A model generated the notes under the pieces. That model was not told the origin of the DNA, searched no databases, and saw nothing but the letters and a program-made list of their open reading frames with translations. 40,995 bases of DNA from a virus. The stretch spans positions 1-40,995 of the IMG/VR virus record IMGVR_UViG_3300025106_000004, one strand, 5' to 3'. Positions 4,301-40,760 of this stretch are shown here, in pieces (position 1 is the stretch's first letter; every line of letters starts with the position of its first letter). A program made the position numbers and the translations under genes.

Positions 4301-7300
4301 CGTTTGTCCTGGCCATCGACCGACTTCTTCCAAGTCGTGGCAAGCCGACGCACCACCGCGTCGCCAGCCGCCAGGTCCAGCATCGACGCGATATAGTCTG
4401 CATTTCGGGTGAAGCGAACTTTCGCGCCCCGGTGAAACAGCTCATGAAAGACCGTCTGATGAACGTCGATGACCGAGCCGATGTTGTCGGCGAAAAGAAG
4501 TATTCGTCCATCTGGGAGAGTACCCCCCATTGGACGTATTCCAGACGCGACCGTAACCCCAGCGGCAGCGGGGTCAGCGAAGACTTCGATCCCAGGAGCG
4601 TCCGGGACACCCTTTATGGCCGTCTGTGCGGCCTTGCGAACCGCATCAAGCGACATCTTCCCTGGAACTGACGCATCACGGCCAACCGGGCTGTATAGAC
4701 GCATGCCGTCAGCGTCTGTCTGGTCCGTGTCACGGAACAGCATGACACCCTTGTCGGTCTCACGGGACTCGACGGTCTGGAAGAAGTGATCGAAGCCTGC
4801 ACGGATTGCTGGAATCTCCCCGGCCGTGGGGTACGGGTAGCTGTCCTCCAGCTCGAAGCCGATGGCCTCGGCAGCCTTCCAGGTCTCGGGCGAAACGATG
4901 TTGGCCAGGTAGTCGTTGGATGCGTCCTGGTCCTGGAGCTTGGAAATCAGGTAAGACTCGAAGGCGCGCGCCGACATTTCCGGGTCAGTCGTCCAGTATT
5001 CCTTGGAGCGCTTGGCGTCCAGCTTGGCCGACCGCGCCTTGATGGCGGTTTCACGGATGGACTTCATCACCGCGCCAAAGGCTTCGATCATTTCCTTGCG
5101 GACCGCGCCCTGGTGCTGGAAAGCGGACCCACGGGACGCGAGCGACACATCGAGGGCGTCGGTCATCATGCCGTCGCCCTTGGCGCGCATGCGAGAGAAG
5201 TAGTTGTCCAGGGCGTGCCACCACTCATGGCCAAGTGAGCCCGCGCCGGACTTCTTGGTCAGGTTGATGACCACCTTGCCTGGCTCGTAGTGCGCAGCGG
5301 CCGGGTTCACGCCACCGCCACCACGGGCACCGAAGGCCAAGCCAAGTTCGCCGTTAAGCGATAGCGCCTTGGGCGGCACACCAATGATGGCAGCCATGTC
5401 CATGAGCGCATCGAAGGCGTCGTTCAAGTCTTTCTGGCGGCGACCCTGCTCGACCCAGTTGCCAAACTCCACGCCACGGAAGCCGAACGTCTCGCCAAAC
5501 ATCTGCGGCGTCACGTCCTGGCCGTTGCGCATGTCTTCGCCGACGCGCGGCTCGTTGGTGTCGCGGCGCTCGCGCGGGATTTCCTTGGACTTCTCCAGCT
5601 TGGCAACCAGCTCGGCCTGGTTGTTGAAGCGGTAGTCGCGCGCGGCCTTGATGTTGTCAAAAGGCCCGGCCAGGAAAATCGGGTTGCGACCGACTTTCTT
5701 GCCAACCCAGTACCCCTTGGAATCGCGTCGAGAATAAATCTCGAAGCTCGTCTCCTTCTTCTTGGCAGCGGGGTTGATGTCAAGAGAGTCGTAGCGCTCC
5801 TTGAATGCCTTGAGCGCTTCTTCCTTGGTGAAGCCTGTTGCGAGTTGGCGCGGCCAGTTGCTGAATGCTGTGGCTGCCGCCTCCTTCTCGACCGTCCAGA
5901 TCACCTTGGCTGGTTTGTACTCAATGCCGTTATGGATCGAATACTGGCCAGAACTCAGGCGCACACCGCTGAGCGATTGGCGATGACCCACAAGCATGTA
6001 AAGCTCGACGCGGCCAGCGACATCGCGCATTCCCTTTGATGTGAATTGCGTCATGAGCTGCTTGGCGCGCTCGACATCGAGGCGGCCGTCCATGAGCTTC
6101 ATGGTCGTCTCGCGCAGCAGTCGGACCTGATCCGCCCATTGCTTGAGCTTCCAGGACTGGCGTGGCTTGTTGGCCGGAATCTCGTCGCGCGCTGCATGAG
6201 CGAAGGCAACAGCCCAAGGGCTTGCGCCGCCATCGAGCAGTGCCTGGTAATCCGGCTGCGGCCAGATTTTGGACAGCGGCTGATTGGCGATGTCGTCGTC
6301 TGCGACCGCGCCCAGGTCGTCCTGGAAGGATGTCCAGACATCCTTGCGAGCGCCACCAATCTTCTCGCCGAAGTCCTCGATCTTGCCGTTTGGCTTGGCG
6401 GTAGCGCGCGGGTCTGGTGTTGGCTCCACAGTCGTGATGGCGACACCATTCCCGTCGAAGGGCTCGAAGCTCTGTGCAGCCAGCTCGCCGTCCTCGGGGT
6501 TCCACCAAAGCGTGATCGGCTTGTTCAGGCTGTCGGCCATTTTCTGGATGCGCTTGGCCATTTCCTTGCCATCAGACTCGGTTGACCCTTCCTTCACAAA
6601 GGCGTTGGCCACGGCTTGGGCTGGCGTCATGCCAGGCGACGGCATGGGCGCTTGCGCATCTTGCGATGCAGGCGGACTGCTGAAGATGTCCGTCTGGCCA
6701 CGGGATGCGGCCACATCGGCAGGTCGGTCGCTGCCGGTCAGAGCGAAGTCGTCGCGCTGGGCATCGGCTTGGGTCTTCTGTTCCGCCTCGCGGTCCAGGC
6801 GAGCGCGCTCCTGCTCGGCTTGCTCCAGCTTGGCAAGCCGGTCCTCGATGTCCTTCGGGGTGTAGCTGGTCAGTCCTTCGGCTTGGATGTCTTCGGCGGG
6901 TCGGCTCGCTTGAGCTGATCCAGCGTCTTGCGATCCTGCGGGTCGGGCTGCTTGCCCGCCAGCATCTTCTTGAACAGGCTCACGCCCTGCGGGCTGCGCC
7001 AGACTTTCTTGGCTTCCTCGTTCATCTTCGGGCCTCAGTTGGTTGATGATGTCGCCACGGCTTGCGCGTGGCACTTCCCCGAACATGTCCGATGCGGGTT
7101 TGTTCGCTTCAGTGTAGGCCATGTCGGCAGCGCGACCCAGGGCTTCCACCACGGGCTTGACGCTGCGCGAGTTGCGCACGAACAGATCGAGCACTTCACC
7201 GACAAGCGGGTCCGCAGTCATGTCCAGTTGCTGCGCGGCCTTGGCCAGGGCGATGCCTTCACGGCGCGCGTTTACGGCAATCTCGGCCGCCTGCGTCACC

Positions 7301-9516
7301 ACGTCACGGATGTCCAGTGCGCCAGCACCATCCAGGCGGGCCATCTTTGGAGCCACCTGCGCCAGTGCGGACAGCACGTTGCGGGCTTCGGGGTCTTGCG
7401 CCTGCGCGTACAGGCGGACCAGTTGGTCGTTGCCGTAGGCGCGCGAGAAGACGGCGGCGCTGATCCGGTCCACGGCCTGCTTGGTCGGTTGGCCATTGGT
7501 GTCAAGCAAGCCACCTTGCTCGGACTGAGGCATGGCGCGCACGAACTGGCGCACGGTCTCGGGAGTGATGGACCCGTCCTCGGCGAACTGGAGCGCATCC
7601 AGGCTCACGCGCTGGGCGTCGTTCTTGTCCTGCTCCACGGGAGACAGCGAGAGGTTGCCGACCGTGTTGGAAACGTCCCCGATGTCAGCGGTCAGGGAAT
7701 CCTTGGGCATGATGCGCACCAGCACCGGCTGCTTCATGCCCTTGATGACCTTTTTGCTGATGCCATGCAGGGCGTCGTCGGTCAGCTCCTTGCGGTAGCC
7801 GTCGGCCTTTGCGCTGCCGTAGGCGGTCTGCAAGCCAGCGATGCGGCCATTGCCTGCAATCGCACGGATCGCCTGCACCTGGTCGTTTCCATAGTCGATA
7901 TTGGCTGTACCGTCGGACTTGTTGGACGCAAGCACCTGGTCAGCCTCGACCACAGCGTACTGCACGGGAATGCGTCGGCCGTCGCTGGCCACCGCCACGT
8001 CTGACTTGCCGATCTGCGTGGCCGGTACCGTGCCGCCTGAGACCACGGGTGCACCGTTGGCGAAGTCGCGCGAAAAGCCCAAGCGTCCGTAGTCTGGATT
8101 GGCGGCGATGCTGGTCATTTGCGCCACTGAGGAAGGCGTCGCACGGTTGCGGTTCTGGAGCACCATTCCGTCAGCCTGCGGCGTTGGCGGCGTCCAGCCA
8201 GAACCAAGAAGGCGCTGAATCAGGTCGGACGGGGTAGAGGCAGGGCCAGGCTCAGGCGACTGCGCACGCTGCGCGGCTGCGCGCTGAACGTCAGGCGTCA
8301 GGCCCAGGTTGTTCATGCGCTCGACCTCGGCCTGGATGGCGACCAATTGATCGGACGGCATTGGGCTGGCGTTGCCCTGCGGATCGACCTGCATGGTCGG
8401 CTTCGGATTGCGAACGGACGGATCAAAGCCCAGCGCCAGCGGTTGCGGGTCTGGTTGCGGCTGTGGATCAGGCTCTTGACGCTGGGGCAGCTTATCGAAG
8501 ATGCGCGCCACGGTCTGCTGGATGACTTGCGGGGTCTGGCGGTCAGCGACTTCCTGAGCCGCCTGGTCAATCGCACGCGCCACCTGGCGCTCGATGCCAC
8601 CTTTGCCGATGTCGCCTGCATTCGTGGCCACGTCGGTACCGGCACCCACACCCAGGCCGATCATGCCGCCATACAGGCCCTGCTTGCCCATGGCGTTCAG
8701 GTCGATGTCCTCGCCCTTGGCGGTTTGCTTGCCGATGTAGTTGGACGACTCTTCGCCACCTTCTTGTAGGAATTCCTTGGCTCCGGTCTTCACGGCAGAC
8801 TTGCCGATTTCGGCTGCACCTCGAACGGCAGATTCGCCAGCAAGGCGACGCGCCACGACGCCCTCAGCACCACCGCCCAGCAACTTGCCAAGCACAAGCG
8901 ACGCTGCCGCGCTGATACCCGCGCCCTGATACCGATCGCCCATGGCCTGGCCTTCGGTATCTGCGAAGGTCTCGGCTGCGTTCTGTGCTGCGCCGGTCAC
9001 GACAGATGCGCCCGTTGCGGCTGCGCCTGGTGTGACGCTGGCCAGGCGCGGGAAGAGCTTGGCGATGGTCGGCAGCATCTTGACCGTGCCGGCAGCGGCA
9101 CCAGCGGGTAAGAACATTGAGCCGAGCGTGGAGATAGCCGTATCGGCTGCCGCGCGCGGGTTTTGCAGAACGATGCCGGGCAGGTCCGTGATGCCGACGT
9201 TGGGGTCTTGCAGCGCCTGGTTGATTTTGGACTTCTGAAAATTCAGCGCATCAGACCCAACCACCTCGTCGATGGCCTTCATGCCCTTGGACATGCTCTT
9301 GGACACACCGAGGTCGATCGTGTCACCTGTAAGCATGTTGCCCAGGTCCGCCACGCCCTTTACGATGGTCGGACCAATCTTCAGGCCAGCGGCTGCGACA
9401 TCCCTGAGATTGTCAGTCCAGCTCGCATCTGGAGAGGATGTCTCCCCATCGAGATTTCCGGTGAATTCTTTTAGCTTCGGCTGGTCAAGTTGGCCGGAAA
9501 ACTCTTTAAGGGGCAT
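1339..9516 (-). CDS. Giant polyvalent virion/ejection protein with two HExxH motifs
   Basis: At 2,725 residues it covers a fifth of the prophage. The N-terminal 300 residues carry several Ala/Gly-rich hydrophobic stretches. Around residue 555 is a GNGR motif in a ParB/DdrB-like context. HEWWH (1430-1434) and HELFH (1691-1695) are two zinc-metallopeptidase signatures. A C-terminal region near 2,340-2,420, with FNRKGN and a hydrophobic stretch, resembles the LPD38 polyvalent-associated domain. Proteins of this kind are packaged in the head and ejected with phage DNA, where they protect or process it; Bcep22-type phages carry even larger ones. It lies after the internal virion genes and before lysis. 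Its start follows the previous stop by three bases, with GGAG overlapping that stop. Confidence 0.85.
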   Translation of the reverse strand: MPLKEFSGQLDQPKLKEFTGNLDGETSSPDASWTDNLRDVAAAGLKIGPTIVKGVADLGNMLTGDTIDLGVSKSMSKGMKAIDEVVGSDALNFQKSKINQALQDPNVGITDLPGIVLQNPRAAADTAISTLGSMFLPAGAAAGTVKMLPTIAKLFPRLASVTPGAAATGASVVTGAAQNAAETFADTEGQAMGDRYQGAGISAAASLVLGKLLGGGAEGVVARRLAGESAVRGAAEIGKSAVKTGAKEFLQEGGEESSNYIGKQTAKGEDIDLNAMGKQGLYGGMIGLGVGAGTDVATNAGDIGKGGIERQVARAIDQAAQEVADRQTPQVIQQTVARIFDKLPQRQEPDPQPQPDPQPLALGFDPSVRNPKPTMQVDPQGNASPMPSDQLVAIQAEVERMNNLGLTPDVQRAAAQRAQSPEPGPASTPSDLIQRLLGSGWTPPTPQADGMVLQNRNRATPSSVAQMTSIAANPDYGRLGFSRDFANGAPVVSGGTVPATQIGKSDVAVASDGRRIPVQYAVVEADQVLASNKSDGTANIDYGNDQVQAIRAIAGNGRIAGLQTAYGSAKADGYRKELTDDALHGISKKVIKGMKQPVLVRIMPKDSLTADIGDVSNTVGNLSLSPVEQDKNDAQRVSLDALQFAEDGSITPETVRQFVRAMPQSEQGGLLDTNGQPTKQAVDRISAAVFSRAYGNDQLVRLYAQAQDPEARNVLSALAQVAPKMARLDGAGALDIRDVVTQAAEIAVNARREGIALAKAAQQLDMTADPLVGEVLDLFVRNSRSVKPVVEALGRAADMAYTEANKPASDMFGEVPRASRGDIINQLRPEDERGSQESLAQPAGREPVQEDAGGQAARPAGSQDAGSAQASRPAEDIQAEGLTSYTPKDIEDRLAKLEQAEQERARLDREAEQKTQADAQRDDFALTGSDRPADVAASRGQTDIFSSPPASQDAQAPMPSPGMTPAQAVANAFVKEGSTESDGKEMAKRIQKMADSLNKPITLWWNPEDGELAAQSFEPFDGNGVAITTVEPTPDPRATAKPNGKIEDFGEKIGGARKDVWTSFQDDLGAVADDDIANQPLSKIWPQPDYQALLDGGASPWAVAFAHAARDEIPANKPRQSWKLKQWADQVRLLRETTMKLMDGRLDVERAKQLMTQFTSKGMRDVAGRVELYMLVGHRQSLSGVRLSSGQYSIHNGIEYKPAKVIWTVEKEAAATAFSNWPRQLATGFTKEEALKAFKERYDSLDINPAAKKKETSFEIYSRRDSKGYWVGKKVGRNPIFLAGPFDNIKAARDYRFNNQAELVAKLEKSKEIPRERRDTNEPRVGEDMRNGQDVTPQMFGETFGFRGVEFGNWVEQGRRQKDLNDAFDALMDMAAIIGVPPKALSLNGELGLAFGARGGGGVNPAAAHYEPGKVVINLTKKSGAGSLGHEWWHALDNYFSRMRAKGDGMMTDALDVSLASRGSAFQHQGAVRKEMIEAFGAVMKSIRETAIKARSAKLDAKRSKEYWTTDPEMSARAFESYLISKLQDQDASNDYLANIVSPETWKAAEAIGFELEDSYPYPTAGEIPAIRAGFDHFFQTVESRETDKGVMLFRDTDQTDADGMRLYSPVGRDASVPGKMSLDAVRKAAQTAIKGVPDAPGIEVFADPAAAGVTVASGIRPMGGTLPDGRILLFADNIGSVIDVHQTVFHELFHRGAKVRFTRNADYIASMLDLAAGDAVVRRLATTWKKSVDGQDKRSMYEERGALTGDRLANYEALAVEEALAEVAENLAEGTNKPTPTTIQRIAQALARVAEVFGMARLAKWLREANASTAERFVMETVRMSGGTPNQNTTAVLFSQGVASASTSWTVTEPGTGDAFIRAIQNNKIDVKRVRDAIAERYGKMSESKDAYLGEELYHGRVAARVSRIYDEQVEPLLKKIAVAGKNVGVTMDDVNQYLHARHAPERNAAMKAINPGMQDNDALSGMSDQEAAKVLADFNAAGKDKALSLIAADVDQLLADTRTNLVADGLEDAGVVAAWEAAYKHYVPLQRDIKSTGTPKGMGFSIRGPESKRAVGSNREVVNILANIVAQAETGAIRAEKAVVGRTLLAMAKQYPNPDFWKVDVPPTKPRIDKDTGLVIRSAVDPLYQTADNVVMVKHYGQEHFIVFSKDSERAMAMAHAMKNLDIAPMNKILEVANKGTRFLASLLTQRNPMFWLTNFARDIQGALVNLEGTDAEGLQREAMANLPKAFKGMHAIVRGQGTGQWARYASEFKEAGGTTGYMQVFENSDKRMADLEKEVARMQQGKSDPRRLARLALEFVDDYNDIIENAVRLSVFQAARDANVSTAKAASIAKNITVNFNRKGNLTPPINSLYMFFNASVQGTARLAQAMVTSRKAQAFVGGIAVMGFVLDAINRMAAGDDEETKRNRYDLIPEFEKSRNWIFMNPMRPGEYVKVPLPLGPHVFHNAGRLLSDAIFRKNPRNASEYGWSIAGVFLDAFSPLGASPSLGQLIAPSVLDPAVQIAENKSFTGAPVYKSADRGFGKTDPKPAYTRHFESTPDVWIGASKMLNDATGGDKVKPGAIDISPDIMKHVFYTMTGGPGRTLDQAIDTAQAGSRGKDVSVNRVPLASRFYGANDDAQRERAYYDDRKRVLDAKQTFDYYVKNGRQDEARKVAAELGDGDPAKGRKKMLEFSAAEKSVRKINGSIRQELARDDDGEATAEQMRALRQRRVRVMSDALDNE

Positions 9517-15279: not shown

Positions 15280-16629
15280 TCAGGCGGCCACGGGTTGGAT
15301 TGGGATCACGCGCTTTTTGGGCGCGTCGGGCACGCCATGCACTTGACCAAAGATGTCTTTGCGGTCCTCGCGGAAGTCGCCTTCGATGTAGTAGGGCAAG
15401 CAGCCCGTCAGGTACTCGATGGCGGCAGCTAGGAAAGGCACGTTGTCCGAATAGGCGGCATCGCAGCCAGCATCCCAGAGCGTGCCTTCCAGGAACATGC
15501 ACGAGCCCTTGCAGAGCTGAAGCACCGGGCAGCTTGCGCAGTCCTTGCGCTTGCTCCAGTGGGTTGCCGTGCGCATCTTCACGGCCTGCAAGTTGGACAG
15601 ATGACCGATCTGGTGCGACTGGCCATTTGGCGCGGTCGCAGCGGCGCTCACGTTCTGGCAGGTCAGGACGTTGCCATGCAGGTCAACGGCAATGTTGTCC
15701 GCCTTGTCCATGCCGCACTTCTGGCCCAGTGCGGAAGCCGGGCGCGCAGTGCGAATCGACTGTACGAAGTCCATGATCTTTTGCTGACCAATCACAAAGC
15801 TCGTCGCCATGCCCAGGCGCAGCTCCTTGAAGGCCATCGCACGGAAAGCAATGTGATCGGCTGGCGTCTGGAGGGTCGATGCCATGCCGCCATCGTCATA
15901 GGGGTCGATGAATGAGCCCTCGCCGATGCGCACATCCTGGCCAAACTGCTCTTGCAGCCATGCCTGGACGTGGGCGCGACTGCGATTGTCTGCGTGCATC
16001 ATGGCGTTGACGCTGATGCGGCCTTGCGGATGCAAGCGACCGTACAAGTCCATTATGGAAACACGCTTTTCGGGGTCGTCCAGCGGGTCCATGCCGCGAG
16101 CGTGGTAGCCGGGACCGTCGTGCGACAGACCGACAGCAAAGCCCAGACGGTCCAGCCACTCGTTCTTTTCAGCATCAAGCAGACTGCCGTTCGTGATGAT
16201 GTTGAAGTGGGCTTTCGGATAGAGCTGGCGCAGGCCCTCGGCCAGTGGCTTGAGCGTCTTCCAATAGACAAAAGGCTCACCGCCCCAGAATTCGATGCGC
16301 TCAGGCGGCTCAATCATCGCGTCAGGCAGTTGCGCAATGAACTTGTCAACGTCAGCAGGATTAGATGAATCCGCGTGCGGCACGAAGCGCTGGCTGCAAT
16401 AGCTGCACTCGTAGTTGCACGACAGCCCCAGGCTGACTTTGAGCGTGCGAATGTTGCCCTTACGGCCAGGCTGATCGACGGACACTGCCGTCGCATCGCG
16501 GAAGGTTCCGGGCTGAGCCTGAACGACGGGAAGGCCGTCCGCCCAGGTCAGTGTTGAAGCCTGGTTGTCGTAGGTCAGCGTGACTTGCTGGCCATCCTTG
16601 CGCAGTGCATGAATTTTGAAGATTGACAT
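15280..16629 (-). CDS. Radical SAM enzyme with SPASM domain (peptide/protein modification)
   Basis: The 449-residue enzyme has the radical-SAM cluster motif C71-x3-C75-x2-C78 (SCNYECSYCSQ), a GGEPF motif that holds the SAM amino group, and a C-terminal SPASM domain. That domain matches the canonical pattern: C-x13-G-x4-C, then C-x2-C-x5-C-x3-C (CASCPVLQLCKGSC), then a final Cys. SPASM enzymes carry two extra Fe-S clusters and usually modify peptides or proteins (anaerobic sulfatase maturases, thioether- and C-C-forming RiPP maturases, QhpD). About 65 residues precede the radical-SAM core. The ATG overlaps the oxygenase stop by one base (TGATG), so the two genes are translationally coupled. 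Its substrate is not known; the nearby Cys-ended tail fibre is the obvious candidate. Such an enzyme is unexpected between phage tail genes. Confidence 0.9.
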   Translation of the reverse strand: MSIFKIHALRKDGQQVTLTYDNQASTLTWADGLPVVQAQPGTFRDATAVSVDQPGRKGNIRTLKVSLGLSCNYECSYCSQRFVPHADSSNPADVDKFIAQLPDAMIEPPERIEFWGGEPFVYWKTLKPLAEGLRQLYPKAHFNIITNGSLLDAEKNEWLDRLGFAVGLSHDGPGYHARGMDPLDDPEKRVSIMDLYGRLHPQGRISVNAMMHADNRSRAHVQAWLQEQFGQDVRIGEGSFIDPYDDGGMASTLQTPADHIAFRAMAFKELRLGMATSFVIGQQKIMDFVQSIRTARPASALGQKCGMDKADNIAVDLHGNVLTCQNVSAAATAPNGQSHQIGHLSNLQAVKMRTATHWSKRKDCASCPVLQLCKGSCMFLEGTLWDAGCDAAYSDNVPFLAAAIEYLTGCLPYYIEGDFREDRKDIFGQVHGVPDAPKKRVIPIQPVAA

Positions 16630-17315
16630 CAGAACCGCATTTCCTTGTGAAGCTCGATATAGCTGTGGCTGGCGATCTGAAAGTTCACGACGATGCAGAC
16701 GCGCGTGCCTTCGCCACGGTATGGATTGGTCTCGTGCCAGACGTAGGAAGGATGGACGATGGTCTTGCCGGCGTACGGCGGTATCGACACAACCTTTTCC
16801 CAATACGGGTAGTTCACCGCGCCGCGCGGGTCTTGCAGAAGCAGTGCGTGAGTGCCGTGGCGATACGACTTGCCCAGCTCAGGGTCGTTGTGGTCCGGGA
16901 TGTCCAAGTAGTGGATCAGGACGTGATCGACGGACTGGTGATAGTGCGGGAAGGTCCGACCGCCCGATGTCTGCACGTTGCCAAAGCAGCGGCCAGTGAT
17001 CGTCAGCTCGTCGGCCTGCTCGATGTTGAGCGCGCGTCGCAGGTAGTCCCGATACGCACCGCACGCGATCTGCTCGAAGGCGATGATGGCGTTCTTCTCG
17101 GGGTACTTGTGCGCATCGGCGAACAAGTTGTAATGCGTCGAAGCGTAGAACTGCTTGGACTGCATGAACTTGAAAAACTCGGGCGAGTTCTCGGCCAGCT
17201 TTTCCCGGTCCGCCTCTTTGCGCAGCAGGACGGCAATGAGCTGCTGGCGCATTTCCTCTGGAAGCTCCAGGTCAAACTCGGCGACAGGCGTCACCCAGTG
17301 ATTGGTGATCTTCAC
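16629..17315 (-). CDS. 2-oxoglutarate/Fe(II)-dependent oxygenase
   Basis: The 228-residue product fits the putative 2OG-Fe(II) oxygenase family of phages and bacteria. It has an FPHYHQSVD segment (H124, H126 and D130 as candidate iron ligands), an HYLD strand, then IVHPSYVWHETNPYRGEGTR with H194 as distal ligand and R205 to bind 2-oxoglutarate, followed by VVNF. Enzymes of this fold hydroxylate protein or nucleotide substrates. The start is GTG at 17315, overlapping the stop of the 17312 gene as GTGA, and its own stop overlaps the radical-SAM start. Coupling on both sides suggests all three proteins act in one pathway. The exact choice among the N-terminal His/Asp ligands is uncertain. Confidence 0.85.
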   Translation of the reverse strand: MKITNHWVTPVAEFDLELPEEMRQQLIAVLLRKEADREKLAENSPEFFKFMQSKQFYASTHYNLFADAHKYPEKNAIIAFEQIACGAYRDYLRRALNIEQADELTITGRCFGNVQTSGGRTFPHYHQSVDHVLIHYLDIPDHNDPELGKSYRHGTHALLLQDPRGAVNYPYWEKVVSIPPYAGKTIVHPSYVWHETNPYRGEGTRVCIVVNFQIASHSYIELHKEMRF

Positions 17316-18235
17316 GCGACCACCTCGAAGGGAATGTCCAGCATGCCGCTGAAGTTGCGCATGCCGACCTTGACCTTGAACGAGTCACCAGGCTCAAGTC
17401 CCAGTGCTCCCACCTTGAAGGACGCCAAGCCACCAGCCGTTTGCACGCGCCTGTTAGGCAAGTAGCCTCCTGTCTCTTCCAGGTGCAGCGTCGCATCCTT
17501 GCCTTCGTCGCTGGAAAGCCGAACTGTCACATTTGCATAGCCTTCAGCGTCGATTGGACCGCCACCGCTGACCAGCTCCACCTTTGGAAAAGCCACGTCC
17601 ATGTCCGGCAGGTAGTTGTAGTCGTCGGCCTGCACAAACCCGTCGATGTTGGAGCGATAGCCCAGCGACAAGTTGTACTTGAGCGTGATGCTGCATTCCG
17701 TGAATGGTGTGTCGGCAAAGGGCTGATAGATGAACAGGTTGCTCGGCGTGCCCAAATTTCTGACCGAGCGCATCGGGTGCATCTTTGTCGCGGTCTCGAA
17801 TGCGATGGCGTTGTAGAAGGGACGCATGTTCCCCTGATAGTCCACGCCACACACCCAGACGGCCGCATCAGACTTCTCTCCGTTGCGGATGGAAGGGTCA
17901 TCCAGGTCCAGCAGCGAATACGAGACGGCCTTGAAGTACCGACCGGCGAGCTTCGGGTCCAACTCTTCACCTTTGAGAAGAGGCTTCTCCAGTCGGACGC
18001 ATGGCAGGCGGTTGTGATACACACCGCTTGCGGTTGGCGGGAGTTGCCCAGGTACAAATTGCCCTTCAAATTGAAGACTGCGGATGTCTTCTGCCTGGTC
18101 GTCGTAAGGTGTTGCGTCGCCCTCGTAATCTTCCTGCTGGATTTCCAGGTATGAAGTAACAGAAACGACGCGCTTAGTCACAACCAAGTCCAAGAAGACC
18201 GGGTAGGACATGCTGCTGACAGTTTTGCGAAACAT
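17312..18235 (-). CDS. Unknown protein between fibre and modification enzymes
   Basis: About 307 residues, acidic and strand-rich, with no family recognised. The N-terminal part is mixed (VFLDLVVTKRVVSVTSYLEIQQ...) and the middle contains NRLPCVRLEKP, SDAAVWVCGVDYQGNMRPFYNAI and ECSITLKYNL. The last 80 residues (about 225-307) look like an Ig-like beta sandwich (ANVTVRLSSDEGKDATLHL ... PGDSFKVKVGMRNFSGMLDIPFEV). An ATG at 18241 abuts the GAAGGG sequence with no spacing; ATG 18235 has a six-base spacing and is the likelier start. It begins just after the fibre stop and overlaps the oxygenase start. It may be a fibre-tip or scaffold partner for the modifying enzymes. Confidence 0.7.
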   Translation of the reverse strand: MFRKTVSSMSYPVFLDLVVTKRVVSVTSYLEIQQEDYEGDATPYDDQAEDIRSLQFEGQFVPGQLPPTASGVYHNRLPCVRLEKPLLKGEELDPKLAGRYFKAVSYSLLDLDDPSIRNGEKSDAAVWVCGVDYQGNMRPFYNAIAFETATKMHPMRSVRNLGTPSNLFIYQPFADTPFTECSITLKYNLSLGYRSNIDGFVQADDYNYLPDMDVAFPKVELVSGGGPIDAEGYANVTVRLSSDEGKDATLHLEETGGYLPNRRVQTAGGLASFKVGALGLEPGDSFKVKVGMRNFSGMLDIPFEVVA

Positions 18236-18245
18236 GGGCATCCCT

Positions 18246-19883
18246 TCAGCAGTTGCAGTTGCAGTTGCAGTTGCAGTTGTAGTAGTAGCGAACAGAGCGG
18301 ATCTGAATCTGCCCTCCGTTGTCCATGAGTTCTGTGCGCACGGTTGTCATATTCCCACTGCCGTAGCAGTTGATCGGGTTTTCTGGCACGCAATTCCCAG
18401 TTGCGCCAGAGCCCGCAACTAGGGTGGGTGCGCAGTTCCTCACCTGGCTAAAAAAGACGTCATGCAGCCAACCATAGTTGGCGGTCCACACTTGGCCGTT
18501 GTTGTTGACGTACATGTCCCAGTTGCCGTCGGTCTTCAGGAAGCCCATCAGGTCTTCGTTGTGATGAAGGCGTCGGGTGCGTCCAGTGGTCGTGTCGCTC
18601 ATCCCAAGGCTCGGCACATTCAAATGGCCGGTCATCGTGCCGCCTGACTTCGCCACCACCAGGTTGTAGTCAACAGACCCGGCCGGGCCAGTTGGGCCTT
18701 GCGGACCCTGCGGACCCTGCGCACCAGTTGCACCTTGCGGTCCGGTTGCGCCTGCCGGACCCGTCGGGCCGGTCAAGCCTTGCGGACCCGTCGGGCCTTG
18801 CGGACCTGCGGGGCCAGTAGCGCCAATTGGACCTTGGACGCCCTGGACGCCTTGAATGCCCTGGTCGCCTTTGGCAGACAGCTTGCTCCAGACAGTCGTA
18901 GCAGCATCGGACGGCTCAGTGCTCGACGTGGACTGCAATGCAACCCAGGACGCGCCGTTGTGAAAGACCGCATCGTCGGCCGCGTACCCTATGCCAGAGA
19001 CCCAAGGGCCTCGGAAGGTCATGCCGCGCACACCTTGCGGGCCTTGAATACCCTGCGGGCCTTGCAGCCCTTGCACACCCTGCGGACCTTGTGGACCAAC
19101 AGGACCGACGGGGCCAGTCTCGCCCTGCACGCCTTGCGGACCTTGTTGACCGATCGGGCCAGTCGGACCCATGGGGCCAACCGGACCCTGGACACCCTGG
19201 TCGCCTTTTTCGCCCTTACCAAATGGAACGCCACCCGACCAGACGCCAGGCGTATTGCTCAGGCGCAGGTACAGGAAGCCGTTGTCGGTGGACAGGAATG
19301 CGAAGCCGTGCGGCTCGTTGTTGTAGTTGGCGCGGTCGGCATAGACGCCAACAGCGTCCACGTCGAAGGACATGCCAGCGACGCCTTGAATGCCCTGCGG
19401 TCCTTGAGGACCGACGGGGCCTTGCTCGCCAGTCGTTCCCTGGATGCCCTGCTCGCCTTGAGGCCCTTGCGGACCCATGGGGCCGGTCGCACCTGCGGGG
19501 CCAGGATTGCCTTGCGGGCCTTGCTGACCTTCAGGCCCTTGAGGACCGGCTGGACCGGTCTCGCCGCGTGCACCTTGCACACCTTGAGGACCAATAGGTC
19601 CAGCCACACCTTGCAGGCCCTGCATCCCCTGCGGTCCAGTGGCACCTTGTGGGCCTTCTGGACCAGGGATGCCGTCCAGCAGCTCGGGCTTGAGTTGATC
19701 GAGGCCGACGATGCCACTTTGCAGGCTGCCGTCGTCCTTCTGAATTTGGGCCAGATTCGTGCGAATCTGGTTGACCGATTGAGCAGCCGCATCCAGCTCC
19801 TGATTCAGGGCTGCGTGGTCGGTGTCATCGCCCTCGCGTTCGGTGAAGTCAGTTTGTCGGTTGTAGGCTTGCGGCTGCGTCAT
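18246..19883 (-). CDS. Collagen-like tail fibre ending in (Asn-Cys)5
   Basis: This 545-residue fibre has a helical N-terminal segment for virion attachment (about 1-60) and three blocks of Gly-X-Y collagen repeats. The blocks are separated by globular inserts (one with [16 protein letters not shown], one with [19 protein letters not shown], which resembles carbohydrate-binding modules). Then come an SGGTMTGHL fibre motif and a C-terminal domain. All eight cysteines lie in the last 62 residues (484, 498, 506, 537, 539, 541, 543, 545) and each directly follows Asn. The last ten residues are five Asn-Cys pairs, and Cys is the final residue. Collagen stretches trimerise, so the tails would be brought together. 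Candidate fates are metal binding, disulfides or enzymatic modification by the downstream enzymes. Confidence 0.9.
18249..18278 (-). repeat. Hexanucleotide repeat (AACTGC)5 at the fibre gene's 3' end
   Basis: Five perfect tandem copies of AACTGC, read on the minus strand, end immediately before the TGA stop and encode the (Asn-Cys)5 tail. Because the unit is six bases, slippage would add or remove whole Asn-Cys pairs without changing frame. Confidence 0.9.
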
Positions 19884-20304: not shown

Positions 20305-21351
20305 TTAGGCGATGGCCAGGACGGACTGCGCGTTGCTGCGGCTCAGAGACAGAGCACAGCGCAGGTTCACCATGGCGTACATGGCCAGCACGTCGTGGGG
20401 ACGGATGGGTGTCACGATGTCCATGTCGTCGTCGCGGTACTTCATGAACTTGGTGTTCAGGAAGTAGCAGCGCTTTTCCCACTCAACGGCAGGAGTCGTC
20501 AGGGCGTCCAGCTCTTCAAACTGGGGGTCCCAGATGATTTCCACGCCCTTGAAGTACAGGCCGGTGTTGACGCCGTTGCCGACGCCAGCGTCCAGCTTCT
20601 TCACATCGCCAGCATTGGCGTTGTTCGTGACGACGATTTCCTTGCGGTATGCGTCGATGAACTTGCCACCAGCCAGGATGAAGTTGGGGCTGCCGCCGTT
20701 CTTGATGTTCTTGCGCCAGGCGCTTTCCATCTTCTGGGCGAGGTTGCCGACGGTGCCGGTCTGGATGCCAGTCTCGGCATGGTTGCGCCAGTAAGTGGCG
20801 CTTGCACGGTCCAAGCCACCCACCACGCCGGAAGTCGGTGCGGTCGAGACCAGCACGTCCAGGCCAGCAATGGCGTCAGCGTCTTGAGTGCCGTCGCGGT
20901 GCAGCTCCAGGTCCAGCTTCTGCATGAAGCCTTCCTTGAGCGATTCCATCTGCTCGTCCAGCAGGTTCAGCAGTTGGACCTTCTCGTTTTGCTCCAGCTT
21001 GAACTCGCCGCGAGCACCTTCGCGCACCTTGATACCGGCACCGAACAGGCGGTCGTAGTCCAGGTACAGGCCATCCACGGCACGACGCCACGGGAAGGCG
21101 GCCTGCTCAGTGGTGTTGCGCTTGTTGAAGGAAACGGCATCTTCGCCGTAGGCCCAGGTAAAGTTGCTGCCGTAGGTCTTGCGGACGTTTTCGACGACGT
21201 TCTGCTTGGCACCCAGGAAAGTCTTGCGACCTTCCATGAGCTTCTTGAGAAGGGGGCGCTCCGTGGCAATCTGGTCCACGGGCATGTTGCGCAGGTACTC
21301 GTCCAAGGAAACCTTGGCCAACTCCTGCAAGTCTTGATTGGAAATAGGCAT
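20305..21351 (-). CDS. Major capsid protein
   Basis: The product of 348 residues, from ATG 21351 with a GGAG site, follows scaffold and decoration genes and precedes a strong terminator. It has the early helix (DLQELAKVSLDEYLRNMP), a long E-loop-like stretch, FNKRNTTEQAAFPWRRAVDG, and a C-terminal part with strand-rich WDPQFEELDALTTPAVEWEKRCYFLN and PIRPHDVLAMYAM. These fit HK97-fold capsids of Bcep22-like podoviruses. An in-frame upstream extension lies in the non-coding gap and is not used. The call rests on position and overall pattern. Confidence 0.8.
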   Translation of the reverse strand: MPISNQDLQELAKVSLDEYLRNMPVDQIATERPLLKKLMEGRKTFLGAKQNVVENVRKTYGSNFTWAYGEDAVSFNKRNTTEQAAFPWRRAVDGLYLDYDRLFGAGIKVREGARGEFKLEQNEKVQLLNLLDEQMESLKEGFMQKLDLELHRDGTQDADAIAGLDVLVSTAPTSGVVGGLDRASATYWRNHAETGIQTGTVGNLAQKMESAWRKNIKNGGSPNFILAGGKFIDAYRKEIVVTNNANAGDVKKLDAGVGNGVNTGLYFKGVEIIWDPQFEELDALTTPAVEWEKRCYFLNTKFMKYRDDDMDIVTPIRPHDVLAMYAMVNLRCALSLSRSNAQSVLAIA

Positions 21352-21658
21352 GTCACTGCTCCGAAATGAAAGGTTTGAGAAACACCTTCCACGCCGTGAC
21401 GGCACGCAAGCCCGTCTGGTTCAGCTCATCAGGCTCCCGGCGCGACTTCGGGTACAGCTTTGGCCTGGTGCGCATTGCGCTGGTGGACGCGACCCCACCG
21501 ATGCAGCGACAAATTTGGCGTGTACCGCATCGAGGTACTGGCTGGCCCGCTGCGGGAGGCGATCCCCGCTAACGCTCATTTGCAGACCAGTCAGCACAAC
21601 GATGCGGAACTGGCAGATTGAATTTTCTGCGCCCGTCAAGTCCTCGACGGATATTTGT
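21352..21658. other. 307-base gap between capsid and decoration genes
   Basis: No convincing gene was seen on either strand. The open frames here have skewed compositions typical of shadows and no ribosome site. CAAATATCCG, an element repeated elsewhere, starts directly after the decoration-gene stop. A promoter for the capsid gene may lie here, but no good -35/-10 pair stands out. Confidence 0.5.
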
Positions 21659-23212: not shown

Positions 23213-25123
23213 TTATGCGCTGCCGCCAGCGCCAGCCAGTGCGGCCAGCGACGGGAGACCTGGGCCTCCAGGCATGGGCGCTGGCATCGCTGGGGCCTTG
23301 GGAATGAACTGCTCGACATCCAGGCGCTCGTCGAAGCGCTTGATGGTTTCGCGCAGCAGGTTAATGAGGGGTTCAGCGTCTGCGCCTTGCACGCGCGCTT
23401 GCATGATTCCGCCCACCAGGTTCTGGATGATCGGCAGGACCTTGCCCCAGTTTTCCTGCTCTTCGAGCTTGTCGGGTGCGCCAGTCGTGCCAGCGCGGAT
23501 GCGCATCTCGACCATCTCGAAAATCTGGTCGCGCGACAGGGTTGGCCAGTCGTAGGGCTTAACCTCGACGACCATGGGCGTGCCGCCCGTGTTGATCGTC
23601 TTGGGTTCAGGCGGACCCATCATCCGCTCGACCTGCACAGGGGTCAGCTCTTGCAGCAGGATTTGCGCCGCGTACTGAGCAATCTCTTGCAGCCACTCTT
23701 CCACCTGGTCGCGGAACTCGGAAACGCGGCCAGACAGCGATTGCTGCATGATGCTGGCCTCGGTTGCGGTCTTGGGTTTGACCACACTGGAGCGGGCTGC
23801 ATCTTGCAGGCCAGTGACCTGCTCCCAGTCTTGGCGCACGGCACTGGTGTCGTACACCACGGGGTCAATGGCCGGATGCTCGCGGGCCATGATGACCTGC
23901 GACAAGGGCTTGCCCTCGGTGTCCACAATTGTGATTTCGCCCAGTTCACTGTCCTTGAAGCGCTTGATGCTCTTCTCGCTCACTTCGCCGGACGCAACCC
24001 AGCCGGGCAGGCACAGGTCGCGGTGCTGGTTGAAGCGGTCGCGGGCATCGTTATGCTCTTCCTGGAGCTTTTCTGTCAGGTCCACCAGGCTCGGGGCTAC
24101 GAATTGGCCATCGACCACCTGGTAGGGCAGCAGGAAGTACGGAAACCAGCGTTCACCGGCTTTGGGCGGGGAGTACGGTTCACGCAGCCAGAAGTCACAG
24201 CCCTCGGCCATCGTGTAAACGCGCTGGGTGTTCTTGTCCCAGATTTCCAGGATGGCAATCTGCTTGTCCTCGTCCAGCATTGCCGTGCCACTGGCTAGGC
24301 GGCCATCCTTCTTTGGCATCTGCTGGCTGTCCTGATACGCCTTTGCACTGTCCAGCTTGACCTTGTAGGTCGCCTCGGCGGCTGACTTCTTCATGGGGAT
24401 GATCTGGCACATCCAGTCGCCATCCCGATAGTCAAAGAACTCGCACACCGACGGGTCAATCAGCAGGTTATCGGTCAGTACGCGGTCGATGACCAGGCCC
24501 TCGGCTGCAACCACCTCGACCTGCTCGTTGAGGGCGGCCATGAGCTGCTTCAGCTCTGCTAGGTTGGCCTCCTGCGCCTGGCGCTGGTCCGGGTCCTCGA
24601 TGTCAGCCATCAGGCGCTCGGCCTGGGCGATGTTGTCCTGGGTGTCATTGATGCGCGCCAGGATGATCGGGTCATGCTGGATGTCGCGCTGGTACATGAC
24701 CTTCACGATGCCGAAGGACGACGTGAGCGAGCTGCGCACGGTCGCCTTGGCCCGGTCCTTCAGGCGTGCACGCTCCAGGCAGCGGTTCGTGACCGTCTCG
24801 ATGGTCTTGCAAAACAGCTTGAGGTTTTCCGCACGGTACAGCGGGGTCGCGCTGATTTCCGGGTTGCGGGCATAGATGCTGGGCAGGATCGCGGTGATCG
24901 TGCCGTGGATCAGGTTAGCCCGATGCTTGTAGAAGTCCTTGGACTTGGGATCGGCCTGCCAGTTAAAGCCAGCGACCTCGGCGCGGTTGTGACGCACGCG
25001 CTTGTGAAACTTGTCCCAGTAGGCGCGCGCGTTGGCAATGCGCTGATTCCACTTCTTGGCCAGCTCGTCCGGCTGGGGCTTCTCGCGCGAGCCGTCGGCT
25101 GCGATCTTGTTTTGGTCGGTCAT
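23213..25123 (-). CDS. Portal protein
   Basis: The 636-residue protein is the expected size for podoviral portals. It has the N-terminal helix with YWDKFHKRVRHNRAEVAGFNW, a long coiled region (INDTQDNIAQAERLMADIEDPDQRQAQEANLAELKQLMAALNEQ) like the portal stem, a central wing with SVCEFFDYRDGDWMCQ, the TGLQDAARSS and KTATEASIMQQS segments common in this family, and a Gly/Pro-rich C-terminus. It should form the dodecameric vertex used for packaging and ejection. ATG 25123 lies two bases after the terminase stop; an upstream in-frame TTG would overlap the terminase gene. Confidence 0.85.
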   Translation of the reverse strand: MTDQNKIAADGSREKPQPDELAKKWNQRIANARAYWDKFHKRVRHNRAEVAGFNWQADPKSKDFYKHRANLIHGTITAILPSIYARNPEISATPLYRAENLKLFCKTIETVTNRCLERARLKDRAKATVRSSLTSSFGIVKVMYQRDIQHDPIILARINDTQDNIAQAERLMADIEDPDQRQAQEANLAELKQLMAALNEQVEVVAAEGLVIDRVLTDNLLIDPSVCEFFDYRDGDWMCQIIPMKKSAAEATYKVKLDSAKAYQDSQQMPKKDGRLASGTAMLDEDKQIAILEIWDKNTQRVYTMAEGCDFWLREPYSPPKAGERWFPYFLLPYQVVDGQFVAPSLVDLTEKLQEEHNDARDRFNQHRDLCLPGWVASGEVSEKSIKRFKDSELGEITIVDTEGKPLSQVIMAREHPAIDPVVYDTSAVRQDWEQVTGLQDAARSSVVKPKTATEASIMQQSLSGRVSEFRDQVEEWLQEIAQYAAQILLQELTPVQVERMMGPPEPKTINTGGTPMVVEVKPYDWPTLSRDQIFEMVEMRIRAGTTGAPDKLEEQENWGKVLPIIQNLVGGIMQARVQGADAEPLINLLRETIKRFDERLDVEQFIPKAPAMPAPMPGGPGLPSLAALAGAGGSA

Positions 25124-25125
25124 CG

Positions 25126-26523
25126 TCAAACCCTCATTCGATAGGTGTCGTCGTCGTATTTTTTGGTCGGCTCGTCGTCATCGCCGGATATTTGTTCAGC
25201 GTCAGGGTTACGGCGGCGGCGCATGACCCCGTACCTGGTCGCGTCCCATGCGTGGTCTTCGGCGTCGGTGTCCACGTCCTCGGGGTTGTCGTCGGATGGC
25301 GGCAGGCTGGGCACGGTCCTGATCCAGTGCTTGCAGGTGGAAAAAACCTTCAGCCTGCCCTCGGACAGCAGGCGGATGATTTCCTGCGCGCCGTTGACCC
25401 TTGAACCCTTGGCGTTCCAGGCTTCCTGCCACTTCACGCCACCCTCGCGGAAAATCTGGCCGATTGAGCGGTCCGCACCGATCTTGGAGAAGATGGCCGG
25501 GTCCGCCAGGTTCAGGCGGTACTCGTAGCCCATGCGCTCGTCGTGTTCCTCGATGGCCCTGATCTTCCTGGCCACCTTGGCGGCATCCTCGCGGCTGCCC
25601 TCGTTGGGTTTTTCGCCGATGCCGTACAGCTCGCGCCAGATGTAGTGCACCCCGTCCGGGTCCACGGCCATCCAGTAGCAGGCATACGGACGGGCATAAC
25701 CCCAGTCCATGGACTTCCACACCTTCCAGGTCGAAGGGATCGGGAAGGGCTCAACGACATGGCGCTTGGCATCCCAGACGCCTTCCAGGAAGCTGCCGAC
25801 GTGGATGTCCCAGTCGCCATCGAGCCACGCCTTGCGTCGGTTCGGGTCTTTCAGGGCCTGGAGCGTTGCCAGGTAGTCCGGGTCATTGGCCAGCAGGACC
25901 TTGTTCTCGTAGATGCTGGAGCGGATGGCCACGCGCGGCTTCTGGCCATCGACGCGGATGACCTGGCCGGAAGGCACACCACCCTGGCCAAGTTGAAAAC
26001 GCTCCTTGACTGCGCCGTGACCCTTGCCGAATGGGTTGCAGGTCGCGCGCACCATGCGGGGCATGCCTGGGAAAGATGACCGGCAGGTCGAGTGCATGGC
26101 CTCGTAGAAGCCCAGGTCGCGCCAGTTGGTCAATTCCTCAAAACCAAGCCACGGGTATTCGTGGCCGTGGTAGTTCCAATAATCGTCCTCGCTCGCGCCG
26201 TAGCGGAAGAACAGCATTTCCCCAGTCGGCCACTCCCAGTAGTGCTCGGCCTTGTTGAACTTGGCTTCGGGGAAGAACTGGGTGAACCATCGCCTGGACT
26301 TGGCCACCACGTCCGCAAGCTGGGGGTAGGTCAGTCGGAAAAGGACGCCGCGCCAGTGCTGGCCAAAGCCTTTGCCGGTGTGCTGGGCAAATGTCATCAG
26401 CAGCGAGTCGGTCTTGCCGCCCCCGCGCGTGCCGTGCATCAGCGCCTCGAAGGTCGGGCACGTCAGGAATTGAAACTGCGCACCAGGCAGTGGAGCCCAG
26501 CGCGCCGTCAATCCTGCCTCCAT
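25126..26523 (-). CDS. Terminase large subunit (packaging ATPase/nuclease)
   Basis: The 465-residue motor has a Walker A GTRGGGKT (31-38), a Walker B-like strand WLGFEE with catalytic Glu at 129/130, and a C-terminal RNase H-like nuclease with DWGYARPYAC (first Asp) and EDHAWDATRYG (late Asp). It cuts concatemers and pumps DNA into the head via the portal. I chose ATG 26523, since an upstream TTG extension lacks support; this start overlaps the small membrane gene by 16 bases. The genes that follow are portal, scaffold and capsid. Confidence 0.9.
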   Translation of the reverse strand: MEAGLTARWAPLPGAQFQFLTCPTFEALMHGTRGGGKTDSLLMTFAQHTGKGFGQHWRGVLFRLTYPQLADVVAKSRRWFTQFFPEAKFNKAEHYWEWPTGEMLFFRYGASEDDYWNYHGHEYPWLGFEELTNWRDLGFYEAMHSTCRSSFPGMPRMVRATCNPFGKGHGAVKERFQLGQGGVPSGQVIRVDGQKPRVAIRSSIYENKVLLANDPDYLATLQALKDPNRRKAWLDGDWDIHVGSFLEGVWDAKRHVVEPFPIPSTWKVWKSMDWGYARPYACYWMAVDPDGVHYIWRELYGIGEKPNEGSREDAAKVARKIRAIEEHDERMGYEYRLNLADPAIFSKIGADRSIGQIFREGGVKWQEAWNAKGSRVNGAQEIIRLLSEGRLKVFSTCKHWIRTVPSLPPSDDNPEDVDTDAEDHAWDATRYGVMRRRRNPDAEQISGDDDEPTKKYDDDTYRMRV

Positions 26524-26636
26524 GCCTGGATGGCAGCGACCAGGTGCACAACCGGCACGCAAAACCCAGCAATGACCCCTGCAACAGCCATGAAGTCTTG
26601 ACGCGCCAGGAAATGGGCGAACATGTCGAGAATCAT
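26508..26636 (-). CDS. 42-residue membrane micro-protein between the terminase genes
   Basis: A very small gene starts at ATG 26636, overlapping the small-terminase stop as ATGA, with a strong AGGAGGGG site a few bases upstream. The product begins MILDMFAHFLARQDF and has one hydrophobic segment (about residues 16-36, MAVAGVIAGFCVPVVHLVAAI) and a polar end (QAWRQD). Translation runs into the large terminase start. It may only serve to couple terminase translation, or be a small holin-like or membrane-targeting protein. No homologue was recognised. Confidence 0.7.
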   Translation of the reverse strand: MILDMFAHFLARQDFMAVAGVIAGFCVPVVHLVAAIQAWRQD

Positions 26637-40670: not shown

Positions 40671-40760
40671 TGGCGGAGACGGTGAGATTCGAACTCACGG
40701 AAGGCGTAAACCTTCGTCGGTTTTCAAGACCGATCCATTAAACCACTCTGGCACGTCTCC
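40671..40760 (-). tRNA. Phage-borne complete tRNA-Ser(UGA)
   Basis: The 90-nt minus-strand gene has a GGAGACG/CGTCTCC acceptor, a D arm, an anticodon stem TCGGT/ACCGA around loop CTTGAAA (anticodon TGA), a class II variable arm AAGG/CCTT, a T arm GTGAG/CTCAC with TTCGAAT, and encoded GCCA. All stems pair. It lies inside the prophage next to int, so it travels with the phage and can replace the host tRNA-Ser(UGA) whose anticodon loop is the insertion site. No strong promoter was seen immediately upstream; transcription may come from the host tRNA promoter beyond attR. Sequence differs from the host gene in acceptor and D arm, so it is not a simple duplication. Confidence 0.95.

Follow-up and report, generated by a model that had tools for sequence, protein, structure and literature searches.

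We propose that the virus analyzed here uses a RiPP-like cassette to mature the distal tip of a receptor-binding fiber, a reading to which we give roughly three chances in four. The stretch of DNA under study, called the window below, is IMG/VR virus record IMGVR_UViG_3300025106_000004, positions 1 to 40,995. It encodes a radical-SAM/SPASM enzyme which, among its relatives, is found so consistently together with a cysteine-tailed fiber that the fiber tip is very probably the enzyme's target.

Layout of the window

The enzyme gene has the NC-tailed fiber, the partner protein c1 and an oxygenase on one side and more virion-type genes on the other (Table 1). The original prediction had placed the enzyme between tail genes, and virion-type genes do lie on either side of it in the window. 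The gene order is conserved among relatives. The c1, oxygenase and enzyme reading frames overlap by a few bases, and are therefore probably translated together. The window fiber itself lacks a Hint domain.

Table 1. Positions of the cassette, its sequence motifs and other virion genes in the window.
Feature	Position	Strand	Basis
Terminase	25126-26562	-	
Portal	23213-25129	-	
Major head protein	20305-21405	-	
Collagen-like tail fiber, 545 aa (N-terminal region, GXY repeats, C-terminal domain), presumed substrate	18246..19883	-	PF01391 1.2e-33; phrog_5073 tail fiber 2.3e-70
(NC)5 tail NCNCNCNCNC, directly 5' of the fiber stop codon, presumed modification site	18249..18278	-	Sequence; like tails in nearly all relatives
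Partner protein c1, 309 aa as listed, start probably 18235	17312..18241	-	C-terminal Ig-like domain
2OG-Fe(II) oxygenase, 228 aa, GTG start overlaps c1 stop (GTGA)	16629..17315	-	PF13759 8.2e-10; phrog_81 3.8e-15
Radical-SAM/SPASM enzyme, 449 aa, ATG at 16629 overlaps oxygenase stop (TGATG)	15280..16629	-	Profile matches, alignment, fold
Radical-SAM cluster motif C71-NYE-C75-SY-C78	16396..16419	-	Invariant in 46 relatives
SPASM motif part 1, C305...G319...C324	15658..15717	-	Invariant in 46 relatives
SPASM motif part 2, C364, C367, C373, C377 and C389	15463..15540	-	Invariant in 46 relatives

Elsewhere in the window, positions 1339-9516 encode a 2725-aa polyvalent protein with ddrB-ParB, LPD1, LPD5 and LPD38 domains, which may be an internal virion protein. 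The virion genes are interrupted by an inserted HNH endonuclease (PF13392, 12052-12555), and the record closes with a tRNA-Ser (tga) (40671-40760). Near 32-34 kb the GC content drops to 52%, and the coding strand appears to switch there.

The enzyme is a complete SPASM protein closest in fold to a thioether maturase

The prediction of a complete SPASM enzyme with every cysteine motif intact was borne out, with 10 of 10 cluster cysteines invariant in 46 relatives. The radical-SAM CX3CX2C motif corresponds to C71-C75-C78 and the SPASM motif to C305-X13-G319-X4-C324, C364-X2-C367-X5-C373-X3-C377 and a final C389; none of these residues varies in alignments of 32 to 46 relatives, the largest of which reaches down to 37% identity. 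We assigned SPASM proteins by the seven-cysteine motif CX9-15GX4C-CX2CX5CX3C-C together with the TIGR04085 cut-off; the window enzyme has all of the motif cysteines and scored 35.4 against a cut-off of 27. It is placed in the radical-SAM superfamily by PF04055 (34.8 bits against a cut-off of 29.5), by the motif and by its fold. It also matched phrog_1802 (1e-57), a PHROG of the category "other" annotated as "radical SAM domain-containing protein"; this corrects an earlier note, as the family is already a PHROG. That family includes JWF gp30 (per the annotation of phage 2-1), and its PHROGs entry gives no function and no link to a cysteine tail.

An AlphaFold2 model of the enzyme had a mean pLDDT of 91.9. 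Its best fold match was CteB, a SCIFF thioether maturase (5wgg; Z 23.9, rmsd 4.2, 351 residues), in an alignment that spans enzyme residues 1-410. The next matches were ChlB (Z 21.6), anSME (20.8) and TigE (18.0). Viperins stood at Z 16, and the small-molecule enzymes (viperin, BtrN, MoaA) ranked below the peptide and protein maturases, so no small-metabolite family was the best match and the enzyme probably modifies a peptide segment. Among NCBIfam models, the highest scores were those of the geopeptide (TIGR04280) and PapB (NF047865) maturases, at 54.9 against a cut-off of 400 and 53.6 against 340; all of the RiPP maturase models compared (geopeptide, PapB, SCIFF/CteB, nif11, CcpM and Clo7bot) remained far below their curated cut-offs. 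The same was true of anSME (41.5 versus 349) and QhpD (39.1 versus 453). Residues 1-60 of the model form strands without RRE helices, and a complete RRE-like leader-binding domain was not evident. Some maturases bind their substrate via parts other than an RRE.

Nearly all enzyme loci encode a cysteine-tailed protein

Relatives of the enzyme were gathered blind to the fibers, and comprised 80 viral contigs (306 matched in IMG/VR), 80 bacterial genome contigs, mostly prophage-like, and the cultured Achromobacter phages JWF and 2-1. Two genome loci fell short of the enzyme profile threshold. We limited the forward test to the 136 enzyme loci whose upstream sequence spanned 2.6 kb or more, and scored by script any same-strand reading frame within 5.5 kb that ended in at least 3 X-Cys pairs, or that carried such a run ahead of a Hint-like start. 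A tail was present at 127 of the 136 loci, 121 of them found by script and six by hand. The hand-found tails lay farther away (L019, L020), before a Hint domain (L030) or 18 residues short of the protein end (L233), and two were atypical, one being less regular (L027, ACNCAGGACDCG) and the second found on the opposite side of the enzyme (L273).

By script and inspection, no recognizable tail was found at L018, L080, L222, L239, L256 or L262, and at L275, L277 and L278 the enzyme gene itself is no more than fragmentary. On the enzyme tree, L018 and L222 nest among tailed relatives; the former has non-cassette genes upstream and the latter a fiber start with an apparently frameshifted C-terminus, which suggests loss or misassembly. 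L239 belongs with L331 and L332 to a separate small chromosomal clade of the enzyme, in which both phage genes and a cysteine tail are lacking. In that clade the enzyme gene lies beside ABC/HlyD-like export genes (L239, 7971-9335), near an FlgL-like gene (L331, 9968-11332) or after a LuxR-type regulator (L332, minus strand, 1256-2662). The contigs of L209, L221 (MAG "Akkermansia") and L270 (MAG "Klebsiella") are binned into distant taxa, yet they encode enzymes 55-69% identical to Burkholderiales-type phage copies, and are probably misbinned phage contigs.

Cysteine tails lead back to the enzyme

In the reverse direction, we scanned 2.9 million viral contigs with a DNA pattern encoding NCNCxCNC-stop, which returned 80 records. 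The enzyme was found in 54 of them (40 of the 66 tested, plus 14 already known), and in all 54 the match was a genuine reading-frame end. The remaining 26 comprised 17 chance matches (reading frames no longer than 36 residues, or lacking a stop codon) and nine genuine tails, each with a contig end 72 to 2441 bp away on the side where the enzyme was expected. Genuine tailed reading frames in viral contigs thus numbered 63, 54 with the enzyme and nine near a contig end. For the 44 records in which tail and enzyme fell within one fetched stretch, the enzyme was always downstream and on the same strand (44/44), at 16 to 3367 bp and a median of 1.3 kb.

A second pattern, a cysteine run followed by the Hint start CFPAG, gave 20 records, with the enzyme in 9 of 9 genuine and 0 of 11 chance matches. 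Among 399 Burkholderiales genomes, 7 carry the enzyme; genuine tails occurred in 4, all within those 7. No counter-example with sufficient flanking sequence was found in the viral contigs or the Burkholderiales genomes.

The original prediction had looked to repeated pairing of such enzymes with NC-tailed fibers for support, and the pairing proved strong both ways (127/136 forward; 54/63 reverse, the other nine near contig ends). It had also named the cysteine-rich fiber terminus as the likely substrate, and this near-absolute co-occurrence in both directions, a matter of sequence, argues that the tail is very probably what the enzyme acts on. Chance is ruled out by the more than 300 IMG/VR relatives, the conserved gene order and the mixed codons of the tail.

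The tail is constant and the fiber body is not

We examined 106 non-redundant tails. Cysteine is their invariant element; the alternating X residues are N (339), A (65), D (53), R (12) and Q (8) out of 508, followed by rare ones, and the first X is N in 99 of the 106 tails. The number of X-Cys pairs per tail ranges from 3 to 10 and is mostly 4 or 5, and an exact cysteine end was seen in 51 of 97 C-terminal tails. The codons mix TGC with TGT and AAC with AAT, a mixture that no DNA microsatellite would show. A chance or microsatellite origin was considered and discarded; the AACTGC microsatellites of some Burkholderiales genomes are not at reading-frame ends.

The tailed proteins are about 60 to 690 residues long and fall into at least 8 fiber families that are mutually unrelated by BLAST. 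(Two members of that BLAST set, L066_0 and L250_0, are shadow reading frames called by the script; both loci also have a genuine tail.) Since the fiber body changes family, tail and enzyme are the constant elements. Known RiPP precursor families were absent from the tailed proteins in an NCBIfam search. In some phages three short tailed proteins stand in tandem (among L038-L048 and L063-L071).

A Parasutterella prophage (L335) likewise encodes three tandem proteins, with a c1-like gene and then the enzyme after them. The three proteins end in HCSYCSYCTYC... and TTVNCTTVNC... repeats, where CxxC and CxxxxC spacing replaces strict (XC)n alternation. Two of the three were scanned, and both have a Major-tropism-determinant N-terminal domain (Mtd_N, PF18454, to 5e-11). 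In Bordetella phage BPP-1, Mtd serves as the receptor-binding protein, and the part presumed to be modified is therefore probably the one that meets the host.

Thalassobacter stenotrophicus CECT 5294 (L257, L260, L266) has three full enzyme copies and one fragment, with a short NCNCNCRC-tailed protein at every full copy. There were four enzyme matches in Magnetospirillum sp. SS-4.

Hint domains follow the cysteines in several lineages

A Hint domain comes directly after the cysteine run in phages JWF and 2-1, in Burkholderia paludis MSh1 and in Rhodospirillales prophages; the junction in JWF reads NCNCDCNCNCS|CFPAGTMVLMADG. In the JWF and 2-1 fibers PF05203 scored 47.5 and 46.6 bits against a cut-off of 32.1, from residue 308 and 306, respectively; this start is the catalytic cysteine, and only the N-terminal 37-40 profile positions match. 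At least 5 changes (gains or losses) are needed to explain the Hint label on a quick tree of the enzymes. Hint domains cut at their own first cysteine, so the cut would leave a fiber that ends in its cysteine tail, just as fibers without Hint do. Its recurrence directly after the cysteines in several lineages thus implies a free modified C-terminus as the product.

Phage fiber C-terminal domains that remove themselves are known, both Hint/intein-like domains and S74 intramolecular chaperones. The likeness to these is the self-removing C-terminal domain, Hint (PF05203) in JWF and others, whereas here the cut would expose a cysteine-rich tail that is paired with a radical-SAM enzyme.

At L333 (minus strand, 2339-3280) a distant relative of the enzyme lies next to a protein with a leader-like stretch (DDTLEQVAGGGG). 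We read this protein as a Nif11-like leader that ends in LEQVAGGGG, then a hydrophobic core of short length, then CCFPKHTRV as the start of a Hint-like domain; a Pfam scan gave no match, and leader and Hint are our own reading. This single case, which points to RiPP biology, is possibly a RiPP whose core is released by Hint.

Partner genes

The window oxygenase belongs to PF13759 (39.4 bits against a cut-off of 27) and falls outside TIGR02466 (28 against 62.5). The coupling of enzyme to oxygenase that had been predicted holds in the window, where the two genes overlap, but is only partly general: a 2OG-oxygenase-like gene, of several families, is common, at 62 of 80 non-redundant loci, without being obligatory. 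We considered whether it might act as a collagen prolyl hydroxylase. Collagen-like fibers occur at only 4 of 128 tailed loci, so that this is not mainly its role and is unlikely in general.

The partner protein c1 is encoded at 61 of the 80 loci. It is absent from 19, and in 13 of these it is replaced by c10, an unrelated protein of about 235 residues. The two never co-occur (Fisher 9e-11, 80 non-redundant loci) and thus probably have the same role. The AlphaFold2 model of c1 (pLDDT 80) has a C-terminal Ig-like domain, and its N-terminal part had no solved counterpart among the structures listed in a fold search; c1-like predicted structures occur only in phages, mostly uncultured.

Other genes were seen between fiber and enzyme. 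Proteins with desaturase-type histidine boxes (HxxxxH, HxxHH) are encoded there in L014 (4319-5818), L019 (7923-8654) and relatives, and in one phage (L056, 8805-9989) a 394-aa ATP-grasp-looking protein that had no Pfam match lies between oxygenase and enzyme.

Nature of the proposed modification

During assembly in the host cytoplasm, the 5'-deoxyadenosyl radical of the SPASM enzyme would modify the C-terminal (XC)n tail of the fiber, joining cysteine sulfurs to carbons of the alternating Asn, Ala and Asp residues, most likely as thioethers. The outcome would be a rigid, reduction-proof tip, immune to disulfide scrambling. The oxygenase, where present, would add further hydroxylation, and in several lineages the Hint domain after the cysteines would cut itself off and free the mature C-terminus. 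That tailed phages have such a dedicated crosslinking system, with a tip on receptor-binding proteins crosslinked through thioethers or otherwise, at least 8 unrelated fiber scaffolds and Hint-mediated release, so that RiPP chemistry would serve as a structural device of the virion, seems to us somewhat more likely than not.

Going by family resemblance and the pattern of the tail, we would give thioether chemistry an even chance. It is favored by the many closely spaced cysteines, the varied acceptor side chains and a best match that is a thioether enzyme, and an alpha-carbon acceptor would fit best, since the acceptor side chain varies freely. The tail might instead be modified by C-C crosslinks, oxidation of cysteine of the formylglycine type, epimerization or some other change of cysteine, which we hold possible though rather doubtful. 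The enzyme anSME, which turns Cys or Ser into formylglycine, is among the nearest folds (Z 20.8), and cysteine itself is what never varies in the tail; however, it is the thioether-forming CteB that scores best (Z 23.9) and covers residues 1-410, and 3 to 10 closely packed cysteines suit crosslinks better than formylglycines.

CxC runs could also be plain metal binders, as in the needle of the T4 long tail fiber, where HxH repeats hold iron. The cysteines would then point inward, in alternation, within a trimeric metal-binding tip, and the enzyme would only help to load or protect the site or make a minor change. Strict (XC)n alternation is the pattern expected of a strand that points inward in a trimeric needle, and the tails do sit at the C-terminal end of the fiber. 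Against this, metal loading needs no radical-SAM enzyme, the CxxC and CxxxxC spacing in Parasutterella breaks the alternation, and the near-absolute pairing with one peptide-maturase-type enzyme is left unexplained; we regard a metal tip as improbable. Least probable is that the enzyme acts on c1 or a further virion protein, with tail and enzyme merely co-inherited as a module, for although c1 is conserved at 61 of 80 loci and lies between fiber and enzyme, it is missing at the other 19 (13 with c10 instead), the fiber body varies, only tail and enzyme persist, and tails without the enzyme were found only at contig ends.

Relation to known systems

Like the thioether maturases of sactipeptides and ranthipeptides (CteB, PapB, geopeptide), the phage enzyme combines a radical-SAM core with SPASM cysteines for two auxiliary clusters, and in both a cysteine-rich target is encoded nearby. 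Unlike in those systems, the target would be the C-terminus of a virion fiber rather than a short leader-bearing precursor, the operon often contains a 2OG oxygenase, and no complete RRE was seen. The enzymes anSME and QhpD modify full proteins rather than RiPP precursors, and anSME ranks third in the fold comparison, but no sulfatase or amine dehydrogenase was seen near the phage enzyme. Other phage radical-SAM genes (SPN3US-type, Campylobacter CPt10) were rejected as relatives with the same role: they share only the core, with 24-29% query coverage, and lie outside fiber cassettes. In open-access PMC papers we found no earlier description of the pairing of a SPASM enzyme with a cysteine-tailed fiber.

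Points against the maturation cassette are that no complete RRE-like domain was evident, that a chromosomal clade of the enzyme is tailless, that L018, L080, L222, L256 and L262 have no recognizable tail, and that CxC runs could be plain metal binders.

The known products of radical-SAM peptide chemistry are small secreted peptides, cofactors and a few enzymes. If our reading is right, phages would add a new kind of virion modification, on the part of the particle that probably touches the host. A CxC C-terminus together with a SPASM gene would be a simple genetic mark for such systems, and the tail would offer a leaderless C-terminal recognition tag for producing crosslinked peptides. Cultured carriers include Achromobacter phages JWF and 2-1, and cultured Limnohabitans strains have it in their prophages. 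The pairing also hints at what phrog_1802 does, and at a function for the accompanying 2OG oxygenases and c1 and c10 genes.
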